Shown here in pieces: positions 245-61,747 of a DNA stretch of 64,000 nt (position 1 is the stretch's first letter; each line of letters opens with the position of its first letter). Source of the DNA: Hoplostethus atlanticus (Eukaryota; Chordata; Actinopteri; Trachichthyiformes; Trachichthyidae). The stretch covers positions 1,606,501-1,670,500 of the forward strand of contig JAXDDX010000013.1 of NCBI GenBank assembly GCA_034670405.1. The letters are read 5' to 3'. The notes below the pieces were generated by a model that was not told where the DNA came from, made no database searches, and saw only the letters and a program-made list of their open reading frames with translations. A program made the position numbers and the translations under genes.

Positions 245-3200
245 GTTAGTCCTTTAGCCCCTTACCCTCGTCACCGGGTTGCCTGTTGGTGTCCCTTGTT
301 TCAGTCGTAGACGGTTTCAACCACAGGAGTCCAACCACCAGAATTCAAGGCAATAAAATCATTTGGGTAAAAGCTGAACTTGTTTGTGTTGAGAGTAAAT
401 GAAAGTTATCCTTGTTGAACACTGTACTGTTTAGTGTACACTGGCACCCTCTCCTAAGTGATAGTCTTTTATGAGGCGCTGCTCACTTACCAGCTGACAC
501 AATTTGAGCTTTGTGCTCCTAGGACTATAAGAGGAAGCCAGTGACACTCAGCCTAAACACCGTAAACGACCTATTGGAGTGTTTACTTTTTACTGCTTAG
601 CTAATGTGAACAATTAATTTACGGTTATAAACCTCCCTCATAAATAACCAGAGACTGCCATTTTGTAGTTTCATCCAGAGGGGAATTCAAAATGGCAACC
701 TCCAGAGGCACAGCCTCGCTTCAGACCAGAAGCAGAATGGACGTGTAGCAGGGTTTAGTTGCAGTCCAGCAGCTTTCCCTTAGTAAAAAGCTGCATTGAA
801 TGGAGTTGAAATGACCCATGAAAGCAGGATATACTTGTATTGTACTGCAGCAGCATCCCAAGCCTTATCTTTTATTTAATTATATAAATAATATGCTTCT
901 GTGGTGATATGAAGCAAATATAACCAACGTGTTTCTGTGAAATCCATGCGCCAACAACATGGACTCTGCATCATCACCGTGCACAAAGCGCCATGCTGCC
1001 ATTCACTCCAACCCATTAACATGGTGCCGAAAAGAAGCTGGGTCCGTTGAGCTTCTGATCTGAACAAGACCTCACGCTCTCTCTCTCTCTCTCGTCTTCC
1101 AGGGTGTGACTCTCACCGACCTCCAAGAGGCGGAGAAAACCATCGGCAGGACCCGCCCCACACGCAGCCGGGAGGAGGAGAAGGAGGAGAAAGAGAAGCA
1201 GGACAAGGAGAAGCAGGAGGAGAAGAAGGAGACTGAGACTAAAGAGGACGATTACCGGTCAAGGTACCGCAGCTTCGAAGAGGTACGCAGCTCCTCGGGC
1301 TACATCGATTTAAGTATCAATGTTAAGAAAAGAAAGTAAGGTGTTTGAGTTGATTCTGCAGAGCTGGAAGTATTTCTGAAACCAGGCTCTTCTAAAGGTC
1401 ATAGCTCTGTGGGGGCGCAGTATCTTTCACTACACTGATGTCCTCCTCATCTCTTGCTTCTTTCTCTCTCTCCCTATCAGACCTACCAGCGCTACCGGCC
1501 TTCCTCCTCCTCCTCCTCCACCTCCACAGTCAGCACTGCCTCCAACCCAGCCTCCTCTAGCAGCACCCTGTCCTCCAGCTTTCTCAACAGGCCCAACAGC
1601 CTGACGGGAATCACATCCTCCTATAGCCGCTCCTCCAGGGATACAGAGAAAGGTCAGATAAGACGGTACTCTGTCGACCAAATGCATTTCTGTCCTTCTC
1701 CTGGAGCTCTCTGAACACACAGATGAGTGTACGTACTTAATACGTAACTGCAGGCTGTCAGGATGTCGGCATCAGTCTTCTTATACCCACAACACCTTGA
1801 CTCAAATCTGAGTGGAAACAATAGCCAATTAAAGTGGAGTGGAGCACGAGAAGGAAAGCAAAAAAAAAAAAATACAGGAAGCCTTGAGAGAAAAATGCTC
1901 CACCTCATGTTCCATGATTGTTGTAGTAGTGTGAGAGTTTGTTTTCACGAGATTGCGAGGTTGCGTGATGTTAGAACTGTTGGTGTGTGATCGCCAAGTC
2001 ATGAACGACACGCTAATGCCGGTCGTTGAGTTTGTGATGATCAATCTTTTCAGTCTGTTCAGTGTATCCCCCAGCTTTGGCAACCATAATAAAAACAAAA
2101 TGTCAGCAGCTACCAATAAGCCACTACTATTTGGCTTCACATCAGAGTGCTGACAATGCTAACAACCTATCTTGTCTCGCTGAAGTATCAGTATATTGAA
2201 ACTTTTTAAAATTACAATGTCGAAGTATAAAGCGGTAGATTCACAGTCAGGTTCTGGTGAATTCCACCGGGCTGGCATTTGTCCCCACAGGTCCAGATTC
2301 ACATGGGCACGCTGCCACATGCTGATTAAGGCTACGGAGAAAGAAAGGGATTTTAAATGAAGTGGCTCTCGTCTTGAAGAATAAAGCCACGAAGCATCTC
2401 TGGGAAAATAGAAGGCTGCTTCAATTCAGTCCATCCCACTGAAGGAAACAGTGACTGCTCTGTTCTCTCCCAGCCAAAGCTGGTTTCTTTTAACTCAGGC
2501 CAACTCCGTTGTGGTCCTAATTATGCCTGCTGCAGTCAAATAAATGCATTGTTTATCTTGAACTTTTCCCTCGTTAAAGTTTGCCTTCCGTTTAGGGTTA
2601 CTTCATGGGTATACTGTTGAAGTCACGATAGTCAATTTACAGTGCTCAGGTCAAATGCAGATGATGTAGAGAAGGTCGACATGAGGTACAAAGGGATCTA
2701 GTATTACACCGACTCAGTAATGTTATTTACTACAATGGATATAAAAAATACCACAGAACTGGATTTGAAAACCAGCACTCTATTTTGTTGTTTCACGTTG
2801 ACTATCATTTCCTGCATACTCACAAACATAAATCCTTGTATGAATGTGTATTTAAGATGCAAGAGCAAAGGAAGTTGTGTGTCAGCAAAATATGTCCTAC
2901 AGGAAACAATTATTAAAGTTCCATTCATCAGAACAACTCAGTGGCTATTGGATGGGGAAATCATTCCATTTTAATAACTGTTATTTCATGTTGTTCTACT
3001 GTTTCCGGGGTTTTTGTTTTACAATCAAAATCGTGACACGTGGGTAGTTGTATCGAAGTCAACATGATCTCGTATATATGGTTTACCTGCTGCCATTCTT
3101 CCTGATGGACAGAGACGGACAAAAACGAGGAGGAGAAGGAGGGAGATGACAAGTCTCAGCCCCGCTCCATACGGGATCGCAGGCGGCCCCGCGAGAAGAG

Positions 3201-3952
3201 GCGCTCCACCGGGGTTTCCTTCTGGACCCAAGATGTAAGCGACCCCGCACACAGCGATACACACATTTTTAAAAGTTTCATTATATCGGCACCATAACTA
3301 TTCATGGCACTATTCATCAGGTCAAGCATTTCAGTTCACTTAGAGAAACCGGAGCGTTCCTCTTTGGTAATTCAGACAGCGTGGGCCTGAAGCGGTGTGT
3401 GACCCCGTCTGTAATTTTAATTCCAGAGTGATGAAAACGACCCCGACCAGCAGTCCGACTCGGAAGAGGGCAGCACCAAGGGAGAGCCCCAGGTAACCTC
3501 AACACCCACACATCCAGAGAGGAGATGTAACTACTGAATTTCAAGTAGGAACCCTCGAGCCTGACATCCAAATCAAGGGAGCGCTATCGCCTTTTCTTGT
3601 ACGCCTCGACTTTCCTTTGATTTTTTTATTTTTTTTTGTTCCCCTCTGCGGGTATTTCTCTATTCTCTCCCTTACCTTCTGTCACCTCATATAGCCAAGG
3701 CCAAGCAAGTACTACCAGTCTTTGATTTGCCCTGTTCTGCCCGGTGCGAGTAAGAGTTCCTCCCCTTCCCTCCCTCTTTATCTGTCCTTCTCTATCTGTG
3801 GCCTTTGACTTTTGATTGTTCCCCCCGTTTCCATCTTCCTGTGATTGTCTGGTTGCTAAGGTGAATTTGCCAACCAAAAGTACTCTCAGCTACAGATCAG
3901 TAGGTTTCAAAACAAGCGGCACAGAAAGGAAATCTGGCTCACTGGGGTCAAG

Positions 3953-3989
<37 letters not shown>

Positions 3990-6900
3990 AATTTGAAGTT
4001 TGACAGTTTCGTGATTAGAGTTAAGCGGGAGTGGAAGCACTTCTGTTTGCCATTTGTGCTCTTTCCTGTATGTTGGGTCATTTACAATGAAAGATTAAAC
4101 GGGAATGGGAATGGTGATGATATTGATTGATGTCACAGCTTAGTACATGTAAACTTACAAATTTGTGCAATATGATGTAATTGTTAAAAGCTGGAAATTA
4201 AATTGAGATACATTAGAGAATTTTGTGAAACCAATTATCTTTAGTAATAGCATGTCTACACATTTCAGTCCCTGAAAGAACACTGGAGACCAAGAAGCTG
4301 TCAGATACAGAGTAATGCATTGTAGGAGCATAGAAGGGACAGCACAGCGTAGGCCTGCTGCAAGGGCAGTGTTGTGGAAATTTCGCTGGCTGGGTAAACT
4401 TCCTGTTTGAATGGGAGTGTCCCGCGCAGCATAGCGTAGCGAGCCGACAGTAGTAGTTTACCAGAGTACCTGGCTTCACATCAGACACAGCAGGGAGAAG
4501 AGGAGGGGGATCCAGAGTTGCCAGCCAGCGTGGATCTCTAGGGCGGAGCAGCAGCACAGCACTAAATAGGAAACAGCCCATTATCTCTGCATGGATTGGA
4601 AAGCATTCAGGAAAAGCTCAGTCGCTTCCTTTTCAGCATGACACTCTCAATTAAGAGCAACCATCCTCTACATGGTGGAACCATTTCTAGTGGTGCAAGT
4701 TTAGTATATATAGTTTACTTGGAGACCACAGTGTAAAAAAACATTGAACCTCAGAGCAGATAAAATGGATTGGGTTTTTTGTGTTAGGCTGAGGACACAC
4801 TGAAAAGATTGGGCATCACACACTTAATGATTGGATGGAAACCTGGACTGTAATGTCATCTGCAAATGAACCATATATCCATACTGTGTTCAAGTATTCT
4901 GACGGAGAGTCCACCCTAAGATCCCATTAAGTCCCATTAAGATCTAGTGAAGGGACTTGGTCTCCGCTTTGCTAGCAAGAAAGACGAGTTTTAAACCATC
5001 AGAATTTCTAAATACAATCTGAGTAACTTTAATCCGAACATATTTTTGCTAGTGTGGCAACTTACCCCGAACGAAGCAAAGGGGTTGAATACTTAGCCAA
5101 TCTTGATTTCTGTTATTTTCATTTTATCCTTCCACATAAATTTCAACAGCTTTGATATAATGCAGTGCTTTGCATAGAATTCAGATGAAAAATCCCAAAT
5201 GTGTTTTTGAAATAACTTAATAGTACAACAAAATGAGCAAAAACAAAGGGGTTTGAATACTTTTGCAAGGCTCTGTATGTAAGAGTATCCGAGGGTGGTA
5301 CTGTATGTCCTGCATGACGTCTTGACAGATTGTCACGCTGTGTTCTGTAATTGCGCTCTCTGCTTCAGGAAACTGGCTGCAATCTTTAAATGTCTGGAGG
5401 CCTGACCCCACCACTCTATCTGATGTCTAGCCCCATTCTGAGGCCCTCTGCTGGGGCAGCACAGGCGAGATCAGGCTGCAGCAGCAGTAGGCCTCGAGGC
5501 ACTGGCAGTCTTGGCAGATGTTCAGGAATGTGTGTGTGTGTGTAGGAGGCTGGCTGTAGGGGAAGGTCAGGTGCTGAGACTTAAAGAGACAGCTCTAGCT
5601 TGGAGGAGAATCTGCAAGCAGAGGTTTATCCAGCCCACAAAGTCTGAAATGGCTTCTGTAAATGAACAGCATACCTGGTTTCATTTCAGTGTTCATTTTG
5701 CTCTTGTCTTTGTACCTTGTCACAGCTTTAATCAGACGTTTCAATCCACCAATGTACACTAACTGAGCTACATTTTAGACACCATGCCTTGTCTAGACAC
5801 TAGGAATATTTACCTGCTGTCAGTTTTGTCAATGCTTCATCTGAGCACAACTAAAGACATGAAAATTCACTGTCTGTTTTTGTCTTCTTTCAGAGTGACA
5901 GACTGTCCAGGTATGTTATACTCCTGTTACTACCTTTTACTTGTGTTACTGTACTAACAGTTGTTTTAATTGCCTTCATTAAATAAATCTTTACATTTGA
6001 GTTAAATTGCATTAAGTCATTTATTTTATTTTAGGAACGAGAGCAGCACTTCATCCTCCGAACGCAACAACGCTCTCAGTAGCCGTGGCTACGGCGAGGG
6101 TCGGAGGCCATACTCGAGCAGGCTGGAAAGAGATGACGCCACTGACTACAAGAAGGTGACTTGATCCTGAATTTAATTTTACCATCGCCATGGTAACTTA
6201 GGCTGCACACCTAACCTGCCCTGGGCCGGGTTATGTTCAGGATATCGGATCCAAATGTACGAGGAGAAATGAGGCAGACTTGTCCATTTCTTTCTCATAC
6301 TTCCCACTTTTCTTTTCTTTTTTTAACTTTTTATTTTAATTTTTTGCATTATTTTACATAACAAAACATTTCTTGACATAGGACCCCAATAAAGATAAAT
6401 TAATAATAATAATTAATAAAAATACAATAAATAAAAAGGATTAAAAAAATAATAATTAAAAAATAATAATAATTTAGTACAAAAAATAAGTATAAAAATA
6501 AAAAACATTTACAGAAGGGGTGGCATTACTTCCCACTTTTCAGTTGATATCGTAAAGATACCCTGACTATGTTGACCTGGTATTGTGTATGTGCGACTGT
6601 ACGTTTGAGTGCCATGTTTTCTGACTGTTGCTCGTGTTTCTCCCTTCCATCAGCTCTACGAGCAGATCTTAGCTGAGAACGAGAAACTGAAGGCCCAGTT
6701 ACGTGACACAGACCTGGAGCTGGCGGACCTGAAGCTACAGCTAGAGAAGGCCACACAGGTACAGAGCTTGCTCTGCTTCCTGGGCTCCCACTTCAGTTGA
6801 TTGATCATTAAGATAGTAGATAGGCTAAACCCTCACACTGCTGTTTTCCTGTTTGCAGAGGCAGGAACGCTATGCTGACCGGTCACAGCTTGAGATGGAG

Positions 6901-9900
6901 AAAAGGGTAATGACAGACTAACTTAAATAATCCACCTCTATTTCTGACCTCTTTGCTCTTTACTGAAGAGATTATTTTATAGGCTCTCCTCTTTTTTTTT
7001 TTTTTTAGAAATGTTATCTCTGAGCTCACAAGTCCTTCTTTCCATTATTTTGATTGAACTGAAGTAAACAGCGTGGTAACATGATGACAATGGGTTTATG
7101 TCTGAAGGTAACAAGCAGGCCCCAATATCAACTGGGTGGTGGTATGGTCTTAACTTGAGTTCTTACCAGTCTACTGCCTTTTCCTGCTGCTGGCTTTCAT
7201 GTTGCACATGCCCCTATAGCTGGCGTCAGGGAGGCCTCCTCCCGCCACGCCTCCCAGAACACTGGCACCTTCTCTCTCACGTGTTTTTGAACCTTGGAGG
7301 CAGCGTGTGGTCACCACTTCTCAAGACTGTTCTTATTTTTTTTTAATTTTGTGGTGTGTGTGTGTTTGTGTGTGTATTAGTGTGTGCCGACAATACCACT
7401 AGTGGATTGTTGAATTACTGTTGTACCTCATGCATGTGTCTTCTTCGATTTGATGCACTTTCCACTCATTCATAATTACAGTAGTCATGATGGCAGCCGA
7501 GAGGAGCAACACAATTAATTTCCCCTAGCTGCAGCTCCACACCCATGACACCCTAACCCATGGATGTACAAACCTTATCCCTAGTTATTGCTTTAAGTCC
7601 ATGCTCTAACGTAAGCCAGGTTTCAAATCATCCTCCACATCTTCATGGCCTTTTCCCATCCTGTCCCAGCATGGATTTCCCTCCCCAAACAAGCCTTTAT
7701 TTCCAGAAGGCCAGTCCGACCTCACTGTCCATGAGTCATCGCATTAACATCATCTACTACCCCATGTCCTTACTCATGCATGTCATTGGACATCTCTATC
7801 TGGATCATGCATACATCACTGAGTAGGTCTAAATAAAATGTAGGCTCTTCCCTGGATATAAACATGTAGGCTATGGTTGCGGCTTGCAGACACCTCACAG
7901 TCATGCGTGTGTTCACGGGTGTGCTATGGCTACATCCTCACCCCTCTTGTCACCTCTGTCGTTTTCACGCAGCGTGTAGAGCCTGTGCTGAAGTGTGTGT
8001 GTGTTTTTGTGCTTATTGTCCGTGCGACGCCTGTAAACTTGGGGCTGACCTGTTTTTCCTCCGTCCCACAGGAAAGAAGAGCTCTAGAAAGGAAGATCTC
8101 TGAGATGGAGGAGGAACTCAAGGTAGCGTTTCATGTCACTTACCCTTCATGAGGCATAGTGCATTTAAGTGTCTGTTTTTGTGCGATGGCATTCATGGCT
8201 GGGATCCCAGCTTAGTACGTATGTGGTAGTTGGATATGTGTTTAGAAGGCAGTGATAACATGATACGGGTGCTTATAGCCTCTAAATAAACCATTTGAGA
8301 TCCAATTGGGGCAACTACAGATCCCACCTCAATCTCCACCTGTTATTTTGGGCTGAATGTTCCAGCTGAATGTCTCTTTGTTCTGGGCACATCTCAGGTC
8401 AGCCATTGTAATCTATGTTGACAAAACATTTAAGCTCTTCTGAGGAGAAGTCCAATTATATGTTCCTTTTCTGGGAAACTGATTGAAGAAGCATCCATTT
8501 AACCGCAGTGGGCAAGTGTTCTTCCCAGCACTGTGATAATGTAGTGTGTTTGTTTCTAGGTCATAGGCAGCTGGCCGATCTTATCTCTGGCTTTCTATTC
8601 TACTCTACTAGTGTAGATCGACATCTTTCCAATGCCAAACCGGAAAGCTCTTATCACTCCTTCAGTTTCCAAACTCTGTCCCCATTTTCTAACAATCTTC
8701 CTTCTGTGTTCCCTTTTTTCTTCTCTTGATCCCTCCTTTATACATTTATATTGTTCTGTCTTTCTCTAACCTTTTCTCTCTCTCTCTCTTTCTCCTGATT
8801 TGTTTCTTGGTACATTCTTAACATTTCCCCTTTTCCTCTGCAATTCTTTCCCTCTGACTGTCTTTCCATCCCTCCCGTTTCCCCTTTTCTCTCTTCCTGT
8901 GTTGTGGTTGTTTTTGTTTTTTCCCCCCCCCTGCAGAACCTCCCCCAGGTTAAGCAGGTTCAGGCCCTGCGGCAGGTTAAGGAGCGGCTGCAGGCTGAGA
9001 ACCGGGCCCTGGCCCGTGTGGTGGCAAAGCTCTCCCAGTCCGCCTGCAGCCAGCTGCCCTCCGTCGACCTCTAGGCCACGTTCGTCCGTCCACCACCACC
9101 ACCACCACCACCACCACCTTCTCCTCCTCTTCCTCCTCCTCCTCACCTCCCCTGCCCCCCCCTCCCAACCCCACCCTTCTCATGCTCCATTTGCGCTCCG
9201 CCCCGCACCTATAGACAGGCAGGTGCCCAGCCGCCCAACCATCATTGGTTTTGAACACTACCCTTTCTGTCCCCTGCCTCCCCAGACCTGTTGGTTTTCA
9301 GATTGGGGAGGGTGTTTTTTGTTTAGTCTTTTTTACAACAGGACACTCTCCTTTTACAGTACACAACTTTCCAAAACTTTCTGAGCACGATTCCACATTT
9401 CTCAACATGCAAAAATGCACCTATAGGTTATAATAACAAACAGGTTTATAATGGAGGGGTGTCGGTAAGTATCATTTCAGCCAGATACTGCATTACTGCT
9501 GTCAAATTTACTGTTCAATACTTTTGATTACTCAGTGGTTTGGAGTTCATTAGCAAACAAATCTTAAAGTACTGTAAAGGAAAGTGTCCCTTTCTAGTTC
9601 TGATGCCTCTATCAGGGAGCACAGTTGTTCAGTTTGGCTTGTTCTTTGCATGAAGTGGCTTTGTTTTTTGTTTTGTTTTTTGCATCAACTTTTTGGCCCA
9701 CATCTTCAGAGATTGAAGTTTTTCTTTCCCCCTCCTTACTGCTCTCCAGTCCTTCCCAAAGGTTAATTTGACAGATGACATCAACAAAGCCTTGGGTCAC
9801 TTGGTTACAACAACTTCTTTGATCGGTGTACAGTACAAATATTACATTTGGGCTTATCTGTCATCCACATTCTGCAATATACATTTACCAACTGGTTGGT

Positions 9901-10713
9901 TGACTGTCATCTGTAGTCATTGTGAAATAGTTTCTTTTTTTAGTGGACTGTAATCTTCTCTTGCTGGAGTTGTTTCTCAGTGCTGTGTGTCAATAGGGGT
10001 CCTCTGAAAACAGGACATGTTCACTGCACCTCTGTTTTTAAAACTAGTTAATTAAGTAATTAAAGTTCTTGTATATTATTACGGTATATTTAAGACTTGA
10101 AAATCCAACACACTGAAATGTCGAACTTTTAAGTCCACAATTTGTCGACTTATTTCAGGACTCATGACCCAACACAGCCGTCTGAAAGGCCAGTGTAGAT
10201 GTTTGCCCATTATGACCTCATAATGAGGAATCATTGTGGATACATTTTAACTTCGTATGGGTCAAATAAAGGAGTTTTCTTTTTGTTTCTTTTGCTCTGC
10301 TGTGTACTTAGACAGCCCGTCTGTTGGCTGCTGGTGAGCAGCCACTCAGGTTGTGCATGGCTATTGATTAGGAGAGCTGGCCTGTCGGTGTGCCTGCTTT
10401 AATTCCTCTCTCTCCTGACTTGAAACAAGGATGTGGTTTTAAAAAGAGGGGGGAACACAGATTGAGAGATGCTGTGTGACTGGTCCAAGATTGCTGACAC
10501 ACGCTGCAATTAACAGATTGTAGAACTGGACTGACTGGTTAACAAACACCATGTATCTTGTCAAGACTTGTCTAAGCCCTCTCTTCCCCCACCCCCCCCC
10601 CTCCCTGTTTTCTTTTACTCTTCCAGACGCTACCAGACTTGAAAGCAGACAACCAGAGACTAAAGGACGAGAACGGAGCTCTCATTCGAGTCATTAGCAA
10701 GCTTTCCAAGTAG
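154..10713 (+). CDS. ppp1r12a: PPP1R12A / MYPT1, myosin phosphatase regulatory (targeting) subunit, C-terminal third (5'-partial)
   Basis: Joined exons 154-244, 1103-1282, 1481-1652, 3113-3234, 3427-3492, 5894-5910, 6035-6155, 6654-6758, 6859-6906, 8072-8122 and 10627-10713 read through in frame with GT-AG junctions and give 352 residues ending in a stop. MYPT1 targets PP1 catalytic subunit to myosin II and so controls smooth-muscle and cytoskeletal relaxation. The visible part holds RRSTQGVTL (human Thr696-type site; Thr codon 239-241), an acidic/Lys-rich segment, a Ser-rich segment with [19 protein letters not shown] (Thr853-type site; Thr codon 3208-3210) and a coiled coil ending in the zipper that binds PKG-I alpha. 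ROCK and ZIP kinase phosphorylate the two Thr sites; PKA/PKG act on the preceding Ser. The ankyrin repeats and RVxF motif lie before the window. [12 protein letters not shown] favours R12A over R12B or R12C. An alternative terminal exon exists at 8937-9074. Confidence 0.96.
245..1102 (+). other. PPP1R12A intron
   Basis: 858-bp intron with GT/AG ends and a (CT)n tract just before the acceptor (1077-1093). No other feature was seen. Confidence 0.85.
1103..1282 (+). CDS. ppp1r12a: PPP1R12A exon, acidic/Lys-rich linker
   Basis: 180 nt, phase 0 to 0 (60 codons). It begins [15 protein letters not shown], a highly conserved MYPT1 signature, and continues into an E/K-dense, probably helical stretch ending SFEE. 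The acceptor follows a (CT)n tract, and the donor is GTACGC at 1283. Confidence 0.95.
1481..1652 (+). CDS. ppp1r12a: PPP1R12A exon, Ser-rich segment
   Basis: 172 nt, entered in phase 0 and left in phase 1. It begins TYQRYRP, then a low-complexity Ser/Thr stretch, then [16 protein letters not shown], which matches the mammalian LNRPNSLVGITSAYSR. The acceptor is ccctatcag and the donor GTCAGA at 1653. Confidence 0.93.
1653..3112 (+). other. PPP1R12A intron
   Basis: 1.46-kb AT-leaning intron with a poly-A run near 1860. No coding or repeat structure was recognised. Confidence 0.8.
3113..3234 (+). CDS. ppp1r12a: PPP1R12A exon with the Thr853-type site ([12 protein letters not shown])
   Basis: 122 nt; two bases complete a Glu codon and the exon ends in phase 0. 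It encodes [20 protein letters not shown] followed by [16 protein letters not shown]. The Ser/Thr pair (3205-3210) corresponds to human S852/T853, the ROCK site. The donor is GTAAGC at 3235. Placing the acceptor at 3112 rather than 3114 is required by the frame. Confidence 0.95.
3427..3492 (+). CDS. ppp1r12a: PPP1R12A exon, acidic [15 protein letters not shown]
   Basis: 66 nt, phase 0 to 0. It encodes [20 protein letters not shown] then PQ, like the mammalian SDENEQEQQSDTEEG. The acceptor is aattccag and the donor GTAACC at 3493. Confidence 0.93.
3956..3985. repeat. (CA)n microsatellite
   Basis: About 15 uninterrupted CA units. Confidence 0.95.
4880..5280. mobile_element. Tc1/mariner-like non-autonomous remnant
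   Basis: The right end reads aaaggggtttgaatactttt followed by gcaaggctctgtatgta, a phrase typical of fish Tc1-family ends, preceded by gaaataacttaatagtacaa. A degenerate counterpart (tactgtgttcaagtattctg) near 4882 may be the left end. No transposase ORF remains. A related mosaic copy lies near 50940-51180. The family assignment is from memory of fish repeats. Confidence 0.5.
5894..5910 (+). CDS. ppp1r12a: PPP1R12A 17-nt microexon (SDRLS + split Arg)
   Basis: 17 nt, entered in phase 0 and left in phase 2. A strong pyrimidine tract (gtcttctttcag) precedes it and the donor GTATGT follows. Without it the frame from 3492 into 6035 is broken. It corresponds to the TDSISR segment of mammalian MYPT1. 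Skipping it alone would shift the frame; skipping it together with the next exon (17+121 nt) would not. Confidence 0.85.
6035..6155 (+). CDS. ppp1r12a: PPP1R12A exon, Ser-rich to [10 protein letters not shown]
   Basis: 121 nt, phase 2 to 0. It encodes a Ser/Asn/Gly-rich stretch, then [19 protein letters not shown], matching mammalian KPYSSRLEKDDSTDFKK. The acceptor is tattttag and the donor GTGACT at 6156. Confidence 0.93.
6156..6653 (+). other. PPP1R12A intron with AT-rich retroelement-like block
   Basis: About 500 bp. Positions 6310-6515 are extremely A/T-rich with AATAA/TAATAA reiterations and read like the 3' tail of a retroelement, but no family could be named. Confidence 0.5.
6654..6758 (+). 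CDS. ppp1r12a: PPP1R12A coiled-coil exon ([16 protein letters not shown])
   Basis: 105 nt, phase 0 to 0 (35 codons). It starts the C-terminal coiled coil with [16 protein letters not shown] and ends [10 protein letters not shown], nearly identical to mammalian MYPT1. The acceptor is ccatcag and the donor GTACAG at 6759. Confidence 0.95.
6859..6906 (+). CDS. ppp1r12a: PPP1R12A coiled-coil exon ([16 protein letters not shown])
   Basis: 48 nt, phase 0 to 0, encoding [16 protein letters not shown]. The acceptor is gtttgcag and the donor GTAATG at 6907. Confidence 0.92.
6907..8071 (+). other. PPP1R12A intron
   Basis: 1.17 kb with a short TG-rich stretch near 7351-7375. No other feature was recognised. 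Confidence 0.8.
8072..8122 (+). CDS. ppp1r12a: PPP1R12A coiled-coil exon ([17 protein letters not shown])
   Basis: 51 nt, phase 0 to 0, encoding [17 protein letters not shown]. It is the last exon shared by both predicted C-terminal isoforms: both candidate next exons (8937 and 10627) begin in phase 0. The donor is GTAGCG at 8123. Confidence 0.94.
8123..8936 (+). other. PPP1R12A intron before the alternative terminal exon
   Basis: 814 bp. The last ~230 bp are strongly pyrimidine-rich, giving a very long polypyrimidine region before the acceptor at 8936. Confidence 0.75.
8937..9074 (+). CDS. ppp1r12a: PPP1R12A alternative terminal zipper exon (predicted)
   Basis: Acceptor tttttcccccccccctgcag followed by 45 codons and TAG at 9072-9074, in frame with ...EEELK. 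The peptide begins [16 protein letters not shown] and continues [18 protein letters not shown] with an 11-residue tail ending PSVDL. The second part matches the canonical zipper [18 protein letters not shown] at 11 of 18 positions, so this looks like a duplicated zipper exon. It would make a different LZ tail without the 10627 exon. It is absent from the main mammalian protein as I remember it. No transcript evidence is available here. Confidence 0.75.
9089..9118. repeat. (CCA)n trinucleotide repeat
   Basis: About 10 CCA units just after the alternative stop codon. It creates artificial poly-His and poly-Val/Trp frames. Confidence 0.9.
10265..10270 (+). terminator. ppp1r12a: Possible proximal poly(A) signal AATAAA for the alternative terminal exon
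   Basis: AATAAA within gggtcaaataaagg, followed within 15-35 nt by a T/GT-rich stretch. It lies 1.2 kb after the alternative stop (9074) and before the canonical last exon, where an alternative 3' end would be expected. Confidence 0.45.
10627..10713 (+). CDS. ppp1r12a: PPP1R12A canonical last coding exon, C-terminal leucine zipper
   Basis: Acceptor ttttactcttccag, then 28 codons and TAG (87 nt). It encodes [15 protein letters not shown] then [13 protein letters not shown], essentially invariant among vertebrate MYPT1 and MYPT2. This zipper is the part known to associate with PKG-I alpha and confer cGMP sensitivity on myosin phosphatase. Confidence 0.96.
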
Positions 10714-10875
10714 AGCTGACCCCCCCGCCCGTCTTCTGCACCCCCACTCCCCCATGGCAGTGACTAATGGAATTGCACATTTAGATATTAATTGCAACAG
10801 ACATCAGAGACGAGACTCCTTTTTTCTTTTCTCCTCCCAACTCTTATCTCCCTTTGCTCCTCCACCTCTGCAGCA

Positions 10876-10922
10876 TCCACCCACCCATCCACCCACCCAC
10901 CCACCCATTCATCCATCCATTC
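10876..10922. repeat. CCCA/CCAT tetranucleotide repeat
   Basis: Imperfect tandem CCCA and CCAT units within the PPP1R12A 3'UTR. Confidence 0.85.

Positions 10923-11374: not shown

Positions 11375-11376
<2 letters not shown>

Positions 11377-11431
<55 letters not shown>
11377..11431. repeat. (CA)n microsatellite in the PPP1R12A 3'UTR
   Basis: About 27 uninterrupted CA units, likely length-polymorphic. Confidence 0.95.
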
Positions 11432-11434
<3 letters not shown>

Positions 11435-11814: not shown

Positions 11815-11822
11815 TGTATATA
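11815..11822 (+). promoter_or_regulatory. Pumilio-type element TGTATATA in the PPP1R12A 3'UTR
   Basis: Matches the PUF consensus TGTANATA on the transcribed strand of the 3'UTR. Function is inferred from motif only. Confidence 0.4.
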
Positions 11823-12540: not shown

Positions 12541-12560
12541 CTTGTACATTGTAAAGTTCC

Positions 12561-19302: not shown

Positions 19303-20006
19303 CCCCCGGATTAAAACCACTTGAGGAATGCGCTGTCGGTAGGACCGGAGCGGAGAAGTTCGGTATCAACTCGGAAGAAGTGCGTTAAATTCATTCTCAC
19401 CAACTTGGCGTGCTTGGAGGAATTAAGACCAAAAAAAGGGGGATCATGGCCACTGGCGGATTTAAGCCAAACGCAACGACGGACTTTTTGGAGGAATGGA
19501 AGGCTAAACGGGAGAAAATGAGAGCGAAAATGCTTGGGGACATTGCCGCGGCCACCGGTGCTCCCCTGGGCGCCAGCAACGGCAACAGGGGCGAAGCGCG
19601 CAACGCCGCCGCGGGCCCCGAGCTCACCAACAACGGCAACCCAGACCGCGGGGCCCCCGCCGGGAACTGCCTGTCGTCCTACCCCGTGGCTCGGTCCTCC
19701 TCCGCCTCGGCGCTGAAGAGACCCGAGGAGGAAACGCAACACCCTGCCCACCCTGCGCCCGCAGCCTCCCCGGGGAGCAACCTGAAGAAGAGCCCACCTC
19801 AGCCGGAGAAAGTTCAGTGCGTCTCCCCGGAGTCCCCCAGCCCCGCGGCTGGCAACGACAGCGACAAGGAGAGCCCGTCACCCGGCAAGGGCAAGGAGAA
19901 GAAGAACGCTGGTCCCAGTGCCAGGAAGGGGAAAGGGCAGATAGAGAAGAGGAAGCTGAGAGAGAAGCGCAGGTCGACAGGTGTTGTCAGCATACCATCC
20001 AACGAG
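19303..20006 (+). CDS. pawr: PAWR exon 2: 5'UTR tail plus residues 1-187
   Basis: The coding part is 19446-20006 (561 nt), ending in phase 0 at donor GTGAGT (20007). The acceptor at 19301-19302 (ttccctacctgtcaatag) is inferred; another AG at 19269-19270 is possible. It encodes the N-terminus, NLS1, the low-complexity region and most of the SAC core including NLS2 and RRSTGVVSIPSNE. It is GC-rich, unlike the surrounding intron. Confidence 0.9.
19328..19342 (+). promoter_or_regulatory. Short upstream ORF (MRCR-stop) in the PAWR 5'UTR
   Basis: ATG with G at -3, four codons, then TAG, about 100 nt before the PAWR start codon. It is present in the mRNA only if the exon begins at or before 19303. 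Confidence 0.4.
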
Positions 20007-47547: not shown

Positions 47548-47579
<32 letters not shown>

Positions 47580-53500: not shown

Positions 53501-56500
53501 AAAACAAGAGTCATCAAAATGCTCTTTAAATTCCCGGGCTGTCACTGATCTGATCTCAGGTCTGACGCGAGGATCAGATCTATGGCCCAGCGCCGCAGAG
53601 GGAGAGGACCCATCCCGAGCATATCCTCGGGGTCGCCCTCCATCTTAGTAAATCTGTCCAGGCCTGAGCCGCGGGAGAGACGGGGGATAGGGATTGCACC
53701 CACAGCTCTGGACAGCAGAGGTAATGGACGATATGTCACCGAGACGGAGAGGCCCGGTGCATGCTAAGAGCAGGGGCATCCACTAAAGCCCGGCTCTGAC
53801 TGATAGATTGCTGCAGAGCTGAGGCTCCTCAATCAAACCCGTGACCCCTTCACTGCACAGGACCTCGGGAAAGAGGAGATACGTATTATTCTCCGAGCGT
53901 CTGTGACACACACCTCATTTCTTGAATGGAAATGCTGTTTTACCAAAGGCGGTTTCCTGGGCGCATCACTGCAGTATAGATCTAAACAACCTTTAGATCC
54001 TACAATAATAGAGAAAAGATGATAAACATATACCTCACGTTGCAAAACAAGATTGCCTTCCACAACTTGGGGGGCGGCTAAACCATTAAATGCAGCAAAT
54101 CTCATCATTATATCAGTTCTGCAGTTCAAGAACGTTCACACACAACCTGAAGGCTTTCTATAAATGCTATTCCTGATAAATGTATCTCACCCTGTAGATG
54201 GAATTTCTCGTGTTGTTTTTCCCTCTTTGCTGAACCCACACAACCCCGAGGCGTATGAGCGTAGTGTTTGCAGAGCACGATGGATGACACCAACCTAAAA
54301 ATATATACTGTTTTTTTTACTGAAATTGCTTGTATTTGAGATTAGAGACTCGCAGCACTCCTCAATTCGTGTTATTTTCATTATGCAGGCATGAGGATTG
54401 AATATCCCCCTCAAGCACCGGTGATGCAATTTAGCACCTTGAGTTATTGTTCTTGGACCGCCGGCTTTTCTTTCGCTCATGAATGGTTTTGCTTTGTTTT
54501 TCCAGGAGACTCCGAGATCCGGGAGCGGCCGCCACAAGGGGTGAGACTATTTTGCTTCTTCTTCTGACACTTGAGAGTGGAGTTTATCTGCCGTGGCATC
54601 ACCAGTAATGTGTTAAGTGAAGGACCGGCGACCAGGGAGAGAAGCAGCAGTTTGGGTCATTAGTCGCGATAGCAGATTTACTCTGAAATTATCTGATGCA
54701 CTTTCCCTCCTATATGTCACCATGGTTTGTTTTTTTTCATGCCTGCTACTCTCCTTCAAAGTCTTCAGTTCTGGTTCAAGAGGGATGACAGTAGTGCTTT
54801 GATCAGTTGACGGTACGCCAGCGAGACCTTGGACATCCCTGACATCTTGACTACGGTAGCTGGCAGGTTCAACACAGAGGTTGCTTCAGTGTTTTACAAG
54901 GAGCTCTCAAACCTTTTCACTCCATCGACAACCAAAGATCATGTTATCATACGGTTTAATATAGAACTGCATCATACAATATGTAGGGAGAAAGGAAGGG
55001 AGAGTAAACCTGTTAACTGGTAAATGAAATTATTATATACAAATTTACTACTTATTTGTCTGAATTCCCTTCAAGCCCTTCAAGAAACCTTGGACTATGC
55101 AGCATGTTTCCTCTCCCTTGTGCGTACATACTAAAGTACATCTTACCACACAGCCAGTAACACACCAATCAAAACTACAAGTCTTATGAGAACCTTTTAT
55201 GTGTCGCACATATTTTGATATGGTGACCGAAATTGTGAAGCGGTGGCGGATCCCAAACGGCCAGGTTCAGCAGCTGATGCTCTCAGTCTGGCCGTGTCAT
55301 TTTGGCTGCTGCTCTGATCGGCTTACCTGGCCACACTCGGACGCGCCACAGTTCTGCAGCAGAGAGCCCGCCGGGTGGGCCGGGCGGCACAGGATGGCTG
55401 ATGGAGAGAGTATATATACACACATCTGTCCCTCCCACCTGCCTACATGCTTTTGAGTCATTGTAGACACATCATAGTCGGGTGCAGCCCTGATACTGGT
55501 GTGATTAGCAAATGTACAAGTGTGCATACCTGGTAGAACATGGTCTTCCTGTCAATCCAAGCAAATCATTGAAAAGCCAATTTCAGACAAACTGGAGGAT
55601 TGAGTCATTTACACACACAACTGATCGCCGGTGTAGACGAGTTATTCCATGTTGCCGCTTTAGCTCGCAGACAGCCGTTGTCATCCCAGTGGCCGCGGTG
55701 GTCCAGGTTGTTATTGGCTCTGCTGTCTCCTGCTGAGGCTCCCAAGAGTGGATCGTTGACGGAGCCTCTCTCTCTCCCAGACCTCACACCGCAGGGTGCT
55801 AATGGGTGTGCTCGGGTAATGGCGCTGTGCTATTTATTATCGAGGGGATGGATGTTTAGGCTGAGCTTCAACACATGCTGAGTCCCCGAGAGGATCTGTG
55901 TGTTGTTGTTGGTGTGTGTGTGTGTGTGTGTGTATGTGTTGCGTCCAGGGAGATATCTCTCTCCCTAACAAGATGACACGCATGGATGTGCACACGTTAC
56001 AGCTACACCGCCATCGGTTTTGTGTAGGCCTCTTCCCGGGACGTCACGGAGAGCAGATAGGTTGTTATCGGGGTTACACTATGTTATATGTATGAGGGTG
56101 TGTGTGTGTGTGCATGCATGCTTGCATAAGTGTGCTTGTGCCCCGTAAAGGAAGCGTAGCCTTGAAGAGCTGCAAGAAATGCACTTTATCTCGAGCGTTT
56201 CAAGGACTCGCTGTTGATCAAAAGCAGTGGGCACTGCGATGTTTAGCACCGTGCAAGAATGAGTGAAAATAAGCTGCAGAAAAAAACCCGCTGTGTGTTG
56301 CGTGAGAAACGTCAGAGTAGCCTCGCCAGAGAGAAGAATAACGGCTGAGTTGAGTTGAATGAGATGAGTCAGTGAGTGTGTATCCCTCCTGGGGTTGATT
56401 GCCGTAGTTTGTCACCATTGTTTAAATCTTTATGCTCTTGCAAAGTCATACGCTCTCAACTCGGAGCCCAAAATAGTCCACACCCTGTTGATGGAGTGCG

Positions 56501-57247: not shown

Positions 57248-57296
<49 letters not shown>

Positions 57297-60200
57297 ACAG
57301 CTCTGCGGGGTCTGAGGAGGAAGTGGGTGGGAACGGCAGACACCGACAGAACCGCCACGGCAGAGACGGTGGCGCCGCAGCACCCGGAGGCCTGGAGAGG
57401 AGGATAGAGGAACTGGAAAAGGTACTTCTACTGCTCCCTCTGCACGAGACCGCTCGATGTGATGTAGTGTGGTAGATTAAGAGGTGGGTGAACTGTTGGT
57501 GATCATCACAGGACAAACATCCATCAATAGTGAAATAAAGCAAGTTAGAATTCCTGAGGGTCTTTTTCCCCTTAAAAGACCCTATCCACATATAGTTGTG
57601 ATTCAGTCAAATTTCCCTCTCAGACACAAAGAGGGATTTATGTTTAACTTATGATGAACTTGCATAAAAACCATAACTTGGACCAGGGAAATCAGGGATG
57701 GATGTGGTGGAAAATATGAATCAGTTTGATACTACTTACTATGAATTTACACTATAAAGATTTCTGTCAGCCTAAGAATCTGGATAACACCACCACCTCT
57801 TCTACCATTATTTCAAAATGTTCCCTGTTAGCAGCACTTTTGTTTTGGAAGAGCCAGTCTGAAGGTCTCCGGGCCGGCAAAAAAAAAAAAAAGTTTGAAA
57901 AGCATCCTTTAAAAGCATCTGAAAAGATGAATTTCCACTTTGATTCCTTTGAGCGGCCGCCCGAGCTCTGATTTTTTTTTTTTTTTCTGGCTCGACGCCG
58001 TGGCTCAGCCCTGGCAGAAATATCTCCTCCATGTTCTTGAAGAGATGACCTTTACAGTGGAGATGTTTCTCCCCCTCCTACACCACTCCTTTCAGACACT
58101 CACTGCTGCCACTGCAGGGACTCCGGCAGAACTCGAACTCAAATGTCACGTTGGGTGCCTTTTTTGAAAAAGATTTAAAGAAACTGCCGCTGTATCCTCG
58201 GTGACCCCCAGAGCTCCTCTTGAGTCAAAAAAAACAAACTAGAAACGCCATTGAAATCTCATTTTGCATGTTTATTTTCGCCAGTAATCCAAGAGAGATG
58301 TTTGTTCATTCTCTGGAGATCCTCAAGGACTCCACAGCTGCAGTTACCTTCAATACCCTTAATAAGTAAAGTGAATCCAGTTTCAGTGGCCTGCAGAGTT
58401 TTTGTAGCTACTTATGAACAAAAGCCCCATTATGCTTTGTGCCGTCTCCCCGCTCGATTGGTTTCTATGGAAACAATTGCATGCTTATCTGCAATAGAAA
58501 GAAAGTGAGGCTGGAATTCCTGGCGTCCATCATCCCGGAGCATGAACACAAACACGCAACCTGAACATATGCACCTGTTAACCTCGTGTGTTTGCATTCC
58601 TCCCTCTCGTTCTCAACATGCAACAATATCCTCCTATGTCGAGGGAGTTGGCGGAGGTGGCCGGGAACACGCTGGCCCTGACCCAAGTACATTTTGAAGG
58701 GAAACTAAAAGCATTTTTCACTCGTGTACAAGGGCGTGCTGTAACCCCCGAGGGCTATTGTTACTTAATGGGAATAAACCGTTAGTAAGTGGTTCAGGCT
58801 GACTGGCACCTTTTCTGTGTGCTTGTTTATTTGCAAGACTCTCCGGCAGTAGGAAGTAGTATCTATACGCTTTTTGAAAACCGTGCCCTGTCAAAAACAT
58901 CTCAACGCCATCAGGTAGCAGCAGATTGATGCAGCAGGCCAAGGCTCAGCTCTTCACCTGTGGAACATGGCTGTTTCATACATAGTAGTTTTTGCAGTTG
59001 TAGTTTTACCCTTTTTAACCTTTATTTTTAGGGGTTCTCTTTCAGGCTGAATATTATTGCCAGTATTGTCATGGAGCTGTAGCAGTGTAACGGTTTGGGT
59101 AGTTTTTGGTCCCTTAGCTGCCTTTGATCCAACTTCAATTCCTAGATGGCTGCTTCTACTTTTGCTTGAGTATGATTTTTGATTTTTTTGATTCCTAGTC
59201 CTTGAACTCTAGTGTGTGTGTGTGTGTGTGTGCGTGTGCGTGTGTGATTTCAGGAGCTGGCCAGGCAGCTGAAGGCCCACCAGGACAAAGACGACCTCAT
59301 CGGGAAGCTGAAGGAGGAAATTGACTTGCTGAACAGAGTGAGTCCCTCTTCCCTTTTTTCTTGTGCAACTAAGAAAACACGGTAAACTAGAAAACAAGCA
59401 TAACAATAAGTAATAAAATGAAGGCAGGAAAAGACGTCCAAGTAGTAAAAGCTGGGGGTCTTTTCTCCGGCGCGCCTCGCTAAGAGAGTTGCAGAGGCTG
59501 TCATATTTTTAGATCATCGATGGATACCAAGGTCCTGTGGGGCCACTCCAAATAGAACAATAGCGGCCAAAGAAAAGAATCGAATGCAGCTTGGGGTGTG
59601 TTTGCACTGATCCTTTGAATTCAGACAGCTCTATTTTAGACCAGTGCAAAGCTATGCACAGCTAAAGTAAAGCTAATGTGTCCACAATTAGCTTTACCTG
59701 CCGAGGTCTGGTACACAAGACAAATACTTTATAAGCAATGTCTTTTTTTCTGCATTTCAGTTTTGCATTCCTGAAATCATTGTCATTTCACATGGAACCC
59801 ACTGTACATTTTAACTACACTGATATTGCTGCACCCCTTTTTGACACATGTAATGATGTATTTCTAGTAAACCTATAATTCCGATGGCCACTACATAGTG
59901 ACACAGTAAATCAGTCTTACCTTCGTTGTCAAATGGAAGCCGGGGTGCCTGGCCGTGCCCCGGATTAATCACCAAATTACAGCCTTGCCGTCTCCAGGCA
60001 ATCGAGTTGACACTGCGAAGCCGCCTCTGGAATAAGCAAAAGATTATAATCAACCACCGTGTGGAAGAACGGCCTCGTCTCACAGCTTAAAACCCTTAAA
60101 AGCTTTCTCATGGTCACTGTCCATTGATGAGTAGTGAAATTAAATACATAGCGCTCTCTAAGGAAGAGAGGTTTAAGAAGTAGTTGGCGTTCAGGAAGCC

Positions 60201-61747
60201 TGTGGAAACACATCTAGACCAGTTGCGACGACTGGACCTGCTTCGTTTCTGATATTCAATCAACAGTAAATGCACTGCCGTCAGGGGTCAGAGGTCAGGG
60301 ATACTCATGTCGCCCATGCGCTCTTACATGCAGCAGCCAGAGTGATTCACAACCCCCCTCCCCTCCCCCACACACACACACACACCTTCTGGCCCCCCTC
60401 CTCCCGGACTGTCAACAACCCCTCCTCAACACAAAGCCTCTGCCCTTGTTTTCTGGGTCACAGGGGGCTGGTGGTAAAACACGGCTCTGTTTTTTTGGCA
60501 TCTCTGAAGGGAAACTCGGCAGGGGGAGTACATCTGAAAGCCTTTTATGTCTCCAATATTCTGAGAAGACCGATCACAGCCCTCCCCCGACGAGGCAATC
60601 CAATCCAAACAAGAGGCCGCGCCATGCCAACAAATACAGTGGTCAGCGTTGTTGTGCACAGTTTCAGAGCAGTTGAGTGACGCGTCGCTTCAGCCAGTGG
60701 GTTTTTCATCATTTTGACACTTTTTGCCATTACGCCACTCCCAACAGTCCACCTGCAAACACGAAGGGGGGGCAATATCGTAGCGAGGTCAGGAGGGGAC
60801 TGATACCATCGCATGGACAGGAAGTTGGTCATAAGAGAAGGGCTTTATGTAAGAACGGTCGAGGCGGTGATAGCCATCAGAAATGTCCCTGAGAGAGGCT
60901 CCCGCAGGGCCTGATGGGAAAAACAGGAGATAACAGCTGATCCAGTCTGGCGTCTTCGTATAGGAAGATTGAACCCTGACTCAATGTAGAAGTTTATTTG
61001 GGAGAGAAAGCGAAGATAAAGCTGAACCGCTGGCCCCGTATCTCCCTCTCGATACACTTTGAAGAGAGAGAGAGCCCGTCTGGTAGAGAGAGCACAGATC
61101 CCAGCAGGCGCATGCAACACCGATGAGATCTTTCCGTCATCTGATGGTAATTAATTTGGGGTATTTGACTTTTAAAAGGTTACAGCAGCACACGAGAGGC
61201 CATATTGATTGTATAATACACATGAAGCCGATCGGTTTGATCTGAAATCAGCATTTTTATCTCTGCTCCTCTGCAGCAGAGGCAACATGCTCTCTAGAAG
61301 CTCGTCACCTCCCTAGTTTGACTTTCCTAACGCCTCTACGTGCAGTCAGGCTCATTCCCAGTGGTCGTGCCATCCCCGGCTGGTGATGGAAGAAGCCGAA
61401 AATAAGGAGTGTCACTTCGATGAGACAGCGCTGCGGCAACGCGAGGCTCAAATTTGCAACTAATTGGAGCTGTTAATGTGTAATTTGTCGCTATCAAGGC
61501 AGCCTGGCTGAAGGGGAGACCTGGCAGCAAGTATCACTCAATCCTAACTCTCAGACTAACACTCTGACCTGATTGGGCCCTCAGACGCACCGAGGCGGGG
61601 TCTTCAACATTCAGGCGTCTAAACTTGCTAACCCGGAGCTGTCTGTTTTGTCGTTTGCAGGACCTTGACGACATCGAAGACGAGAACGAGCAACTCAAAC
61701 AGGAGAACAAGACTCTGCTGAAGGTGGTGGGCCAGCTGACGAGGTAG
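19446..61747 (+). CDS. pawr: PAWR / Par-4, prostate apoptosis response 4 (complete, 337 aa)
   Basis: Joined exons 19446-20006, 47929-48054, 54506-54540, 57301-57421, 59254-59337 and 61661-61747 give 337 residues (human 340). Par-4 is a pro-apoptotic, mostly cytoplasmic/nuclear scaffold that inhibits atypical PKC and NF-kB signalling and binds WT1, ZIP kinase and myosin phosphatase through its C-terminal zipper. Visible parts are MATGGFKPNATTDFLEEWKA with NLS1 KREKMRAK (residues 21-28), a variable Pro/Ser-rich stretch, the SAC core GPSARKGKGQIEKRKLREK plus RRSTGVV (from residue 156; PKA-site Thr178) and a coiled coil from about 270 to the end. The start ATG has A at -3 and G at +4. The human SPSB motif, caspase site and one zipper heptad are altered or absent. 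It lies head-to-tail after PPP1R12A. Confidence 0.97.
25637..26006. repeat. Diverged tandem repeat (CACCAGTGGTGTCTGAG-type)
   Basis: Three related segments: aaatcagaccggtggtgtat followed by the tail phrase tgacctttagttacagcg (from 25637), aaatcgcaccagtggtgtct followed by tgacctttagtcacagca (from about 25766), and gaatcgtcccagcggtgtct (from about 25970). Similar repeats are common in fish introns. Confidence 0.65.
29749..29824. repeat. (AC)38 microsatellite
   Basis: 76 bp of uninterrupted AC units, the longest simple repeat in the window. Confidence 0.97.
31990..32030 (+). repeat. G-rich tract, potential G-quadruplex
   Basis: Two long G runs separated by cgggttta give at least four G3+ tracts within 30 bp. 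Confidence 0.5.
32180..32214 (+). repeat. Tandem (GATGGGGGGGC)n, potential G-quadruplex
   Basis: Three tandem copies of a ~12-bp G-rich unit (gatgggggggc). Confidence 0.7.
32597..32614 (+). repeat. Poly-G run
   Basis: About 16-18 nearly uninterrupted G in the PAWR giant intron, preceded by cgagg. Confidence 0.9.
32985..33021. repeat. (CCA)n trinucleotide repeat
   Basis: Imperfect run of about 12 CCA units with one CAA interruption. Confidence 0.9.
34010..34051. repeat. (CT)n microsatellite
   Basis: About 17 to 20 CT units. Confidence 0.93.
34647..34681. repeat. (ATT)n microsatellite
   Basis: About 11 ATT units. Confidence 0.93.
35803..35965. repeat. Composite repeat, copy 2 (internally deleted)
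   Basis: It aligns in the same order with both the left flank of the hAT MITE (aacagcccaatcagagtaaa) and its right part (gggacacaatcct...ggggtccgtggtctaatgc...aacccttgcaat), but lacks about 200 bp of the MITE's left and middle. Confidence 0.65.
37530..37690 (+). pseudogene. Possible LINE endonuclease fragment (frameshifted)
   Basis: One frame reads SHSFIDILLI and the overlapping next frame TETWLGTHLFSD. Joined, they resemble the D-LLLTETWL block of LINE apurinic endonucleases. It is very short and has no flanking RT sequence, so this may be chance. Confidence 0.25.
47548..47576. repeat. (TG)n microsatellite
   Basis: About 14 TG units, 350 bp before the PAWR exon at 47929. Confidence 0.95.
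47929..48054 (+). CDS. pawr: PAWR exon 3 (acidic, residues 188-229)
   Basis: 126 nt, phase 0 to 0. It encodes SLDELDDDDGGEKERKQEEE, then LVQANTFQNESMA and ADPGTGHLM, matching mammalian CLDEYEDDEAGQKERK...QQNTIQNEAVNLLDPG. It completes the SAC domain. The acceptor follows a long pyrimidine tract; the donor is GTAAAT at 48055. Confidence 0.95.
48303..48800. repeat. Possible interspersed repeat block
   Basis: Phrases such as aaaggacaaatccaccctaa and aggcattctgggaaatgtag resemble dispersed fish repeats I recall. No terminal repeats or TSD could be defined. Confidence 0.3.
49396..49420. repeat. (TG)n microsatellite
   Basis: About 12 TG units. Confidence 0.93.
50940..51180. mobile_element. Diverged Tc1-like mosaic related to 4880-5280
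   Basis: It contains gccacactagcaaag, the reverse complement of ttgctagtgtggc near 5047-5060, followed by ttgaaataacttaatagcac in the same orientation as 5210-5228. The two parts have opposite relative orientation compared with the other copy. Confidence 0.4.
52072..52153. repeat. Long inverted repeat (32-34 bp arms, 16-bp loop)
   Basis: The left arm 52072-52105 and right arm 52122-52153 are reverse complements apart from one mismatch and a 2-bp indel; the inner 23 bp (tttattgtgtatcagaggct core) pair perfectly. The loop is 52106-52121. Probably a foldback or TIR relic, or a cruciform or RNA hairpin. Confidence 0.85.
54506..54540 (+). CDS. pawr: PAWR exon 4 (35-nt small exon)
   Basis: 35 nt, phase 0 to 2. 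It encodes ETPRSGSGRHK plus two bases of a Gly codon, like mammalian QEPPRTVSGRYK. The acceptor is tttttccag and the donor GTGAGA at 54541. Confidence 0.9.
54541..57300 (+). other. PAWR intron 4
   Basis: 2.76 kb ending in a long TG tract (57257-57294) immediately before the acceptor CTACAG. A short TG run (55913-55936) and a G run (57041-57050) occur. No other feature was recognised. Confidence 0.85.
57257..57294 (+). repeat. (TG)n tract at the PAWR exon 5 acceptor
   Basis: About 19 TG units, ending 6 bp before the intron end in place of a normal polypyrimidine tract. Confidence 0.95.
57301..57421 (+). CDS. pawr: PAWR exon 5 (Gly/Arg-rich, start of the coiled coil)
   Basis: 121 nt, phase 2 to 0. 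It encodes SAGSEEEVGGNGRHRQNRHG, then RDGGAAAPGG and LERRIEELEK, the last matching mammalian LEKKIEDLEK. The middle is more Gly-rich than the mammalian Ser/Tyr-rich equivalent. The donor is GTACTT at 57422. Confidence 0.93.
57422..59253 (+). other. PAWR intron 5
   Basis: 1.83 kb ending in a TG-rich tract (59211-59247) before atttcag. Nothing else was recognised. Confidence 0.85.
59211..59247 (+). repeat. (TG)n/(CGTG) tract at the PAWR exon 6 acceptor
   Basis: About 18 TG-type units with CG interruptions, ending 6 bp before the exon. Confidence 0.95.
59254..59337 (+). CDS. pawr: PAWR exon 6, coiled coil lacking one heptad
   Basis: 84 nt, phase 0 to 0 (28 codons). It encodes ELARQLKAHQDKDD then LIGKLKEEIDLLNR. 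The mammalian block has 35 residues (EVVR, seven more, then LVRLMQDKEEMIGKLKEEID...), so exactly one heptad is missing and the register is kept. The donor is GTGAGT at 59338. Confidence 0.93.
59338..61660 (+). other. PAWR intron 6
   Basis: 2.3 kb with a short CA run (60369-60385). No other feature was recognised. Confidence 0.85.
61661..61747 (+). CDS. pawr: PAWR last coding exon, leucine zipper and stop
   Basis: Acceptor tttgcag, then 28 codons and TAG (87 nt). It encodes DLDDIEDENEQLKQE then NKTLLKVVGQLTR, identical to mammalian Par-4 as I recall it. This zipper end binds ZIP kinase, atypical PKC and WT1. Confidence 0.97.
   Translation, partial: DLDDIEDENEQLKQENKTLLKVVGQLTR

Follow-up and report, generated by a model that had tools for sequence, protein, structure and literature searches.

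PAWR (Par-4) is quite probably a paralogue of MYPT, the product of the PPP1R12A/B/C genes, that corresponds to its C-terminal half and lacks the phosphatase part, the two lineages having split before the last common ancestor of molluscs and vertebrates. The exons of PAWR and of the 3' half of PPP1R12A are collinear, the C-terminal regions of the two proteins are similar above coiled-coil nulls, and PAWR is present in molluscs. Par-4 is generally regarded as an orphan: it is a disordered tumour suppressor whose core kills cancer cells selectively and whose zipper has many binding partners.

The window, the 64,000-nucleotide stretch of Hoplostethus atlanticus DNA that was analysed (contig C13:1606501-1670500 in a genome of 632.8 Mb), contains two genes head to tail on the + strand: PPP1R12A, of which the 3' part is present, and PAWR, with its coding sequence complete. 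The main PPP1R12A stop (10713) is 8.7 kb from the PAWR start codon (19446). Both genes were rebuilt from splice sites, giving the following features.

3113-3234, +, PPP1R12A RRSTG exon with the second inhibitory site REKRRSTGV (T853-type), ending in phase 0, 8 codons past the Thr; from sequence and splice sites
3427-3492, +, PPP1R12A acidic exon, 66 nt, 0-0; splice-checked model
5894-5910, +, PPP1R12A small exon, 17 nt, 0-2; splice-checked model
6035-6155, +, PPP1R12A 2-0 exon, 121 nt; splice-checked model
6654-6758, +, PPP1R12A coiled-coil exon, 105 nt, 0-0; splice-checked model
6859-6906, +, PPP1R12A coiled-coil exon, 48 nt, no PAWR counterpart; splice-checked model
8072-8122, +, PPP1R12A coiled-coil exon, 51 nt, no PAWR counterpart; splice-checked model
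8937-9074, +, PPP1R12A alternative last exon with a second zipper, 45 codons plus stop
10627-10713, +, PPP1R12A main last exon with the zipper, 28 codons plus stop, 87 nt; splice-checked model
19446-20006, +, PAWR first coding exon (561 nt), SAC core with REKRRSTGV, ending in phase 0, 9 codons past the Thr
47929-48054, +, PAWR acidic exon, 126 nt, 0-0; splice-checked model
54506-54540, +, PAWR small exon, 35 nt, 0-2; splice-checked model
57301-57421, +, PAWR 2-0 exon, 121 nt; splice-checked model
59254-59337, +, PAWR coiled-coil exon, 84 nt (28 codons), 0-0; splice-checked model
61661-61747, +, PAWR last exon with the zipper, 28 codons plus stop, 87 nt; splice-checked model

The rebuilt models agreed at all points checked with the exon sizes and phases that the first-pass annotation of this DNA had given for both genes. 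Its gap-free alignment of the two last exons, with 10 of 28 residues identical, was also reproduced. The PAWR in the window is an ordinary teleost PAWR, with 82% identity over its length to a Diretmus protein. Its coil matches 5fiy, the solved coil of a rat or mouse-type Par-4, and the known PAWR/Par-4 features (the FLEEWKAKREKMRAK N-terminus, the SAC core and the C-terminal zipper) are all present.

The exons of four further PPP1R12 loci in the same genome, C20 (L009-L010), C35 (L015-L016), C1 (L011-L012) and C51 (L013-L014), served as a within-family yardstick for the architecture; the models of C20 and C35 begin no earlier than the coil or the 2-0 exon. The phase string 0, 0-0, 0-2, 2-0, 0-0 is common to PAWR, PPP1R12A and the C1 paralogue. 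The C51 paralogue keeps this order but has its acidic exon joined to the small one. The phase-order comparison covers PPP1R12A and two other PPP1R12 genes, which are complete except for this one fusion. The exon with the RRSTG site ends in phase 0 shortly past the Thr, at 8 codons in PPP1R12A and 9 in PAWR, both of which carry the REKRRSTGV site as previously described, and at 7 codons in C51. The first MYPT site, by contrast, is interrupted by an intron that directly follows RRSTQ. The RRSTG site is kept as RRSTGIV in C51 and lost in C1 (RARRRAQRAGE), and a recognisable site was not found in the partly modelled C20 and C35 loci. Each of the five PPP1R12 genes found has a main last exon of 28 codons plus stop, and the last exon of PAWR has the same length.

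Exon length carries weight for some of these exons and not for others. The coil exon that precedes the inner 48/51-nt pair is 105 nt long in all five PPP1R12 genes of the genome. The suggestion that the 84-nt exon of PAWR descends from one of 105 nt fits the finding that 13 of 15 aligned teleost PAWRs retain 35 residues at this position; relative to this teleost norm the window fish has lost seven coil-exon codons. The exon is therefore shorter by exactly one heptad, and P0079 likewise lacks seven residues. However, the equality of the two 121-nt 2-0 exons, which had been counted as evidence, did not survive the comparison. The homologous exon is 64 nt in C1, 40 nt in C51 and 139 or 64 nt in C35, where two possible acceptors make the size ambiguous. 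Because the size of this exon varies among paralogues in the same genome, the 121/121-nt match is a coincidence and was given no weight. The residues at the phase-2 intron are not in exact line either, as the intron lies inside the Arg codon of LSR in MYPT and three codons past the Arg of GRHK in PAWR. A likeness between SRY and RYK at this intron (hagfish MYPT and lizard PAWR both read ISSRY) was not used because it is offset from the intron by three codons and is of low complexity. Derivation of the PAWR coil exon from the 48- and 51-nt MYPT exons was also considered and rejected: the 51-nt exon has to be shifted by four residues to fit and then scores 14.0, whereas in register with the 105-nt exon the best window of 17 residues scores 21.8.

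PAWR thus matches the MYPT C-terminus (PF15898, PRKG1_interact) in the KRRSTG site exon with its phase-0 end a few codons downstream, in phase order, in the 105-nt coil exon and in the zipper, which has the same C-terminal register and is encoded by a last exon with 28 codons and a stop. It differs from MYPT in lacking the ankyrin repeats, the PP1-binding part, the first site RRSTQGVTL and the 48/51-nt coil exons. For example, the window PAWR has a single RRST, which is RRSTG and so is not the first site, RRSTQGVTL, that is present in MYPTs. No ankyrin family was among the Pfam families listed for exon 1 of the window PAWR or for nine full PAWRs (for P0147, the best 25 of 36).

A protein query with PAWR found the gene in the molluscs Plakobranchus and Patella. 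Seven mollusc-type (invertebrate) PAWRs were found, including those of Plakobranchus (P0142) and Patella (P0144), and their zippers are ENQALIRAVGQLS or near it. For comparison, 120 of 214 long MYPTs were listed, including those of Mactra, Mya, insects, lampreys and hagfish; Mactra and Mya demonstrate full MYPT in molluscs. The phosphosite extends as KRRSTGVVHL in 5 of the 7 mollusc-type PAWRs and in 13 of the 120 listed MYPTs, from insects, and KRRSTGVVH[ILV]D, the insect MYPT pattern, is present in 74 of the 120. Elsewhere the same position reads GVSF (vertebrate MYPT) or GIANY (mollusc MYPT). Mean identity to the main last exons of MYPT is 11.9 of 28 residues for mollusc-type PAWR and 9.6 of 28 for vertebrate PAWR. 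The mollusc-type PAWRs are thus nearer to MYPT, which indicates that the two families converge backward in time, as expected from descent and not from chance.

The mollusc-type PAWRs have further features of their own. P0139-P0144 have the linker block KSPSDL(D/E)ADLEDNQDYDS in common, and the mollusc-type proteins have extra residues past the zipper, often Val-terminal, that resemble a possible PDZ ligand. The Patella vulgata PAWR (P0144) is labelled histone-lysine N-methyltransferase set1 in its source.

Coiled coils look alike, and therefore nulls that preserve the heptad pattern were chosen to judge the similarity of the tails. The last-exon score of mollusc-type PAWRs (n = 7) against 20 MYPTs was reached by 2 of 20,000 heptad-preserving column permutations and that of vertebrate PAWRs (n = 7) by 34 of 20,000, with permutations that preserve heptads but not the tendency of real coiled coils to repeat ENxxL. 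For the 35-residue exon the score was reached by 21 of 5,000 permutations with mollusc-type PAWRs and by 333 of 5,000, a weak result, with vertebrate PAWRs; this test covered 19 of the 20 MYPTs (the hagfish MYPT gave no segment), and P0143 was out of register, with a seven-residue insertion. When the segments were slid from -14 to +14 residues (29 slides), register 0 was best in 12 of 12 comparisons. An HMM-HMM comparison of Par-4 with the MYPT C-terminus, also proposed earlier, gave an hhalign score of 51.7 for the coils of 20 MYPTs against those of 14 PAWRs, above each of 300 heptad-preserving shuffles (mean 23.3, SD 5.0, maximum 47.1). The score with vertebrate PAWRs alone was 35.9. hhalign pairs the second half of the 35-residue PAWR stretch with the 51-nt MYPT exon, although the 105-nt exon gives the higher score in register.

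Database searches gave less. The MYPT last-exon profile had 11 matches among 177,635 PDB sequences, with PAWR 5fiy 10th by score (E 2.2). Of the 11, PAWR 5fiy alone was aligned over 25 of the 28 positions, and the alignment lay at the C-terminus of 5fiy; none of the remaining matches covered more than 18. PAWR was not found in PDB with a longer MYPT-coil profile, and no MYPT chain was among the best 60 of 94 PDB matches to a PAWR coil profile. A PAWR query against 5.8 billion proteins (about 392-1246 aa) returned 29 proteins at E ≤ 10, and the only PPP1R12 among them was a fused Bos mutus model. Direct pairwise scores between PAWR and MYPT were at most 14 bits. The MYPT-tail model of Pfam, PF15898, fell under its cut-off in all nine PAWRs scanned (best 23.6 versus 32.4 bits). 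Its rank among Pfam models was 1st for P0139 and P0143, 2nd for P0141 and P0142 and 13th for P0140, all mollusc-type PAWRs; it was absent for P0144, was not among the best 25 of 36 families for P0147, and ranked 7th for mouse and 13th for Megalops among vertebrate PAWRs. In the linker, from phosphosite to zipper, there was no convincing residue homology between PAWR and MYPT. Since neither single sequences nor Pfam reach significance, the case for common descent is made by register, intermediates and gene structure jointly and not by one E-value.

PPP1R12A has a second zipper exon. The alternative last exon (8937-9074) was absent from the earlier list of PPP1R12A exons, and the C20 paralogue has its own copy. 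The C-terminal ends of the 120 listed MYPTs comprise 97 of the main zipper and 21 of the alternative type. Those of the alternative type include Amia, Coilia, opossum and 16 dipteran entries, and both ends are seen in opossum and Bactrocera neohumeralis. The presence of this exon in vertebrates and dipterans gives it an age of at least the insect-vertebrate ancestor. The idea that the PAWR zipper stems from the alternative last exon and not from the main one was considered and set aside: mean identities (of 28) to the main and alternative exons are 11.9 versus 9.6 for mollusc-type PAWR and 9.6 versus 9.3 for vertebrate PAWR, so the main exon is favoured by identities in mollusc-type PAWR only. 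In the available part of a survey of human transcripts, 31-nt E24 and E26 are described and the alternative last exon is not (PMC9367544).

One alternative is that each family independently acquired the common basic kinase motif RRST as well as a leucine zipper of generic type, in which a positions carry Asn, and that the phase match is luck. The subthreshold single-sequence and Pfam searches would be consistent with such convergence, as would the equal scores that other coiled coils in PDB reach against the MYPT tail. Among intron phases, phase 0 is the commonest, and the coiled-coil introns of both genes are mostly phase 0, so the string 0,0,2,0,0 is not rare. However, chance does not readily account for a likeness that lies in exact exon register, is full-length and end-anchored, and exceeds heptad-preserving nulls. 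Nor would it be expected that similarity to MYPT rises in mollusc PAWR (11.9 versus 9.6 of 28 in vertebrate PAWR), that the phosphosite match extends past the kinase motif (GVVHL) or that PAWR and PPP1R12A adjoin. We therefore regard convergence as unlikely.

Gene order bears on the route by which PAWR may have arisen. In the barn swallow the two genes (proteins P0157 and P0133) have consecutive locus tags, DUI87_12677 and _12678, with contigs that are equally long, and the Bos mutus model P0137 fuses the two genes. P0137, P0132 and P0133 are database models that merge PAWR with PPP1R12A or with other sequence, and annotation readily joins adjacent genes whose introns are in phase 0. The accessible part of a published gene-order study shows PAWR adjacent to PPP1R12A in tilapia and other teleosts (PMC11727018). 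Searching the window fish's own genome revealed one PAWR locus: five matches on C13 were followed by three on other contigs at E of at least 1.39. No PAWR remnant was found within 10 kb downstream of any of the four other PPP1R12 loci.

The lack of a PAWR near those four loci would also suit a homology that came about otherwise, through exon shuffling, through two independent fissions of a MYPT tail in vertebrates and molluscs, or with a chance adjacency acquired later in vertebrates. We consider these routes improbable. Features specific to PAWR, including the NTxxNE motif and the DKD..I..L coil, are common to mollusc and vertebrate PAWR, which makes a single origin simpler, and adjacency on the same strand fits tandem duplication.

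The first-pass annotation had suggested that PAWR may be a partial tandem duplicate of PPP1R12A. Common ancestry with the 3' half of PPP1R12A is upheld by the exon-anchored similarity, the profiles above coiled-coil nulls and the invertebrate intermediates, but the vertebrate-era setting that this implied is not supported, because PAWR is present in Plakobranchus and Patella and full MYPT in Mactra and Mya. A duplication of vertebrate age would agree with the neighbouring position and the orientation of the two genes in teleost, bird and cattle relatives and with the identical REKRRSTGV of vertebrate PAWR and PPP1R12A, but it is scarcely tenable, being already contradicted by these molluscs unless their PAWR proteins are an independent MYPT fission, and it sits poorly with the GVVHL that PAWR has in common with insect MYPTs where vertebrate MYPT has GVSF, and with the single PAWR locus in the genome.

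Because molluscs have both PAWR and MYPT, the split predates the mollusc-vertebrate ancestor. PPP1R12A/B/C are generally attributed to the vertebrate genome doublings. With a split this old the doubling was the later event, and the copies of PAWR that would be expected next to B and C would have been lost. A tandem origin is plausible and fits the head-to-tail adjacency here, the barn swallow tags and the Bos mutus fusion; the retained introns favour copying at the DNA level.

Under descent from MYPT, the 3' part of the gene, from the exon of the second phosphosite through the zipper last exon, would have been duplicated as DNA with its introns intact before the mollusc-vertebrate ancestor, and the duplicated tail would have survived without the ankyrin/PP1-binding half. 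The inner coiled-coil exons (48 and 51 nt) may have been lost from PAWR or gained by MYPT. PAWR would have retained the RRSTG-type kinase site, the acidic linker and the C-terminal zipper in the same register, and all three blocks would have a single origin.

MYPT1 and Par-4 are reported by Vetterkind et al. (2010) to bind via both leucine zippers. The PAWR zipper may be able to pair with that of MYPT because both derive from one dimerising zipper, in which case the heterodimer would be a relic of a homodimer. PAWR would lie along the MYPT tail, covering the inhibitory sites, and would be released once its own copy of the site was phosphorylated, with the copied RRSTG site responding to the same kinases. 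This arrangement corresponds to the padlock model of those authors, in which, as set out in the available part of a review, Par-4 bound to MYPT1 activates myosin phosphatase through blockage of the inhibitory sites, and phosphorylation of Par-4 unlocks the complex (PMC4819215). The same part of that review states the functional partnership and does not state common descent of the partners. According to the accessible part of another study, zebrafish Par-4 does not interact with zebrafish ZIPK, whereas rat ZIPK does bind zebrafish Par-4 (PMC4139802); details thus vary among species. We found no statement of PAWR-MYPT paralogy in the accessible portions of the literature on PAWR/Par-4 with PPP1R12A, MYPT1 or myosin phosphatase.

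The fullest version of this history, to which we give somewhat less than an even chance, is that PAWR began as an early or pre-bilaterian partial tandem copy of MYPT that still lies beside its parent gene and works with the parent protein. The MYPT1-PAR-4 complex would then be a relic of an ancestral MYPT tail dimer, SAC, the best-known tumour-suppressor core of PAWR, would be an old inhibitory site of myosin phosphatase, and the locus, counting the alternative zipper exon, would hold three descendants of one zipper exon.

If PAWR is indeed a MYPT paralogue, descent would account for its binding to MYPT1, for its phosphorylation at RRSTG and for the control of myosin phosphatase that has been reported for it, and homology would supply an origin for the published MYPT1-PAR-4 padlock. 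The PAWR zipper would be expected to compete in MYPT-PKG and MYPT-MYPT pairing, and the introns of the two genes would be expected to correspond in invertebrates. The SAC core would become open to study as a myosin-phosphatase regulatory site.
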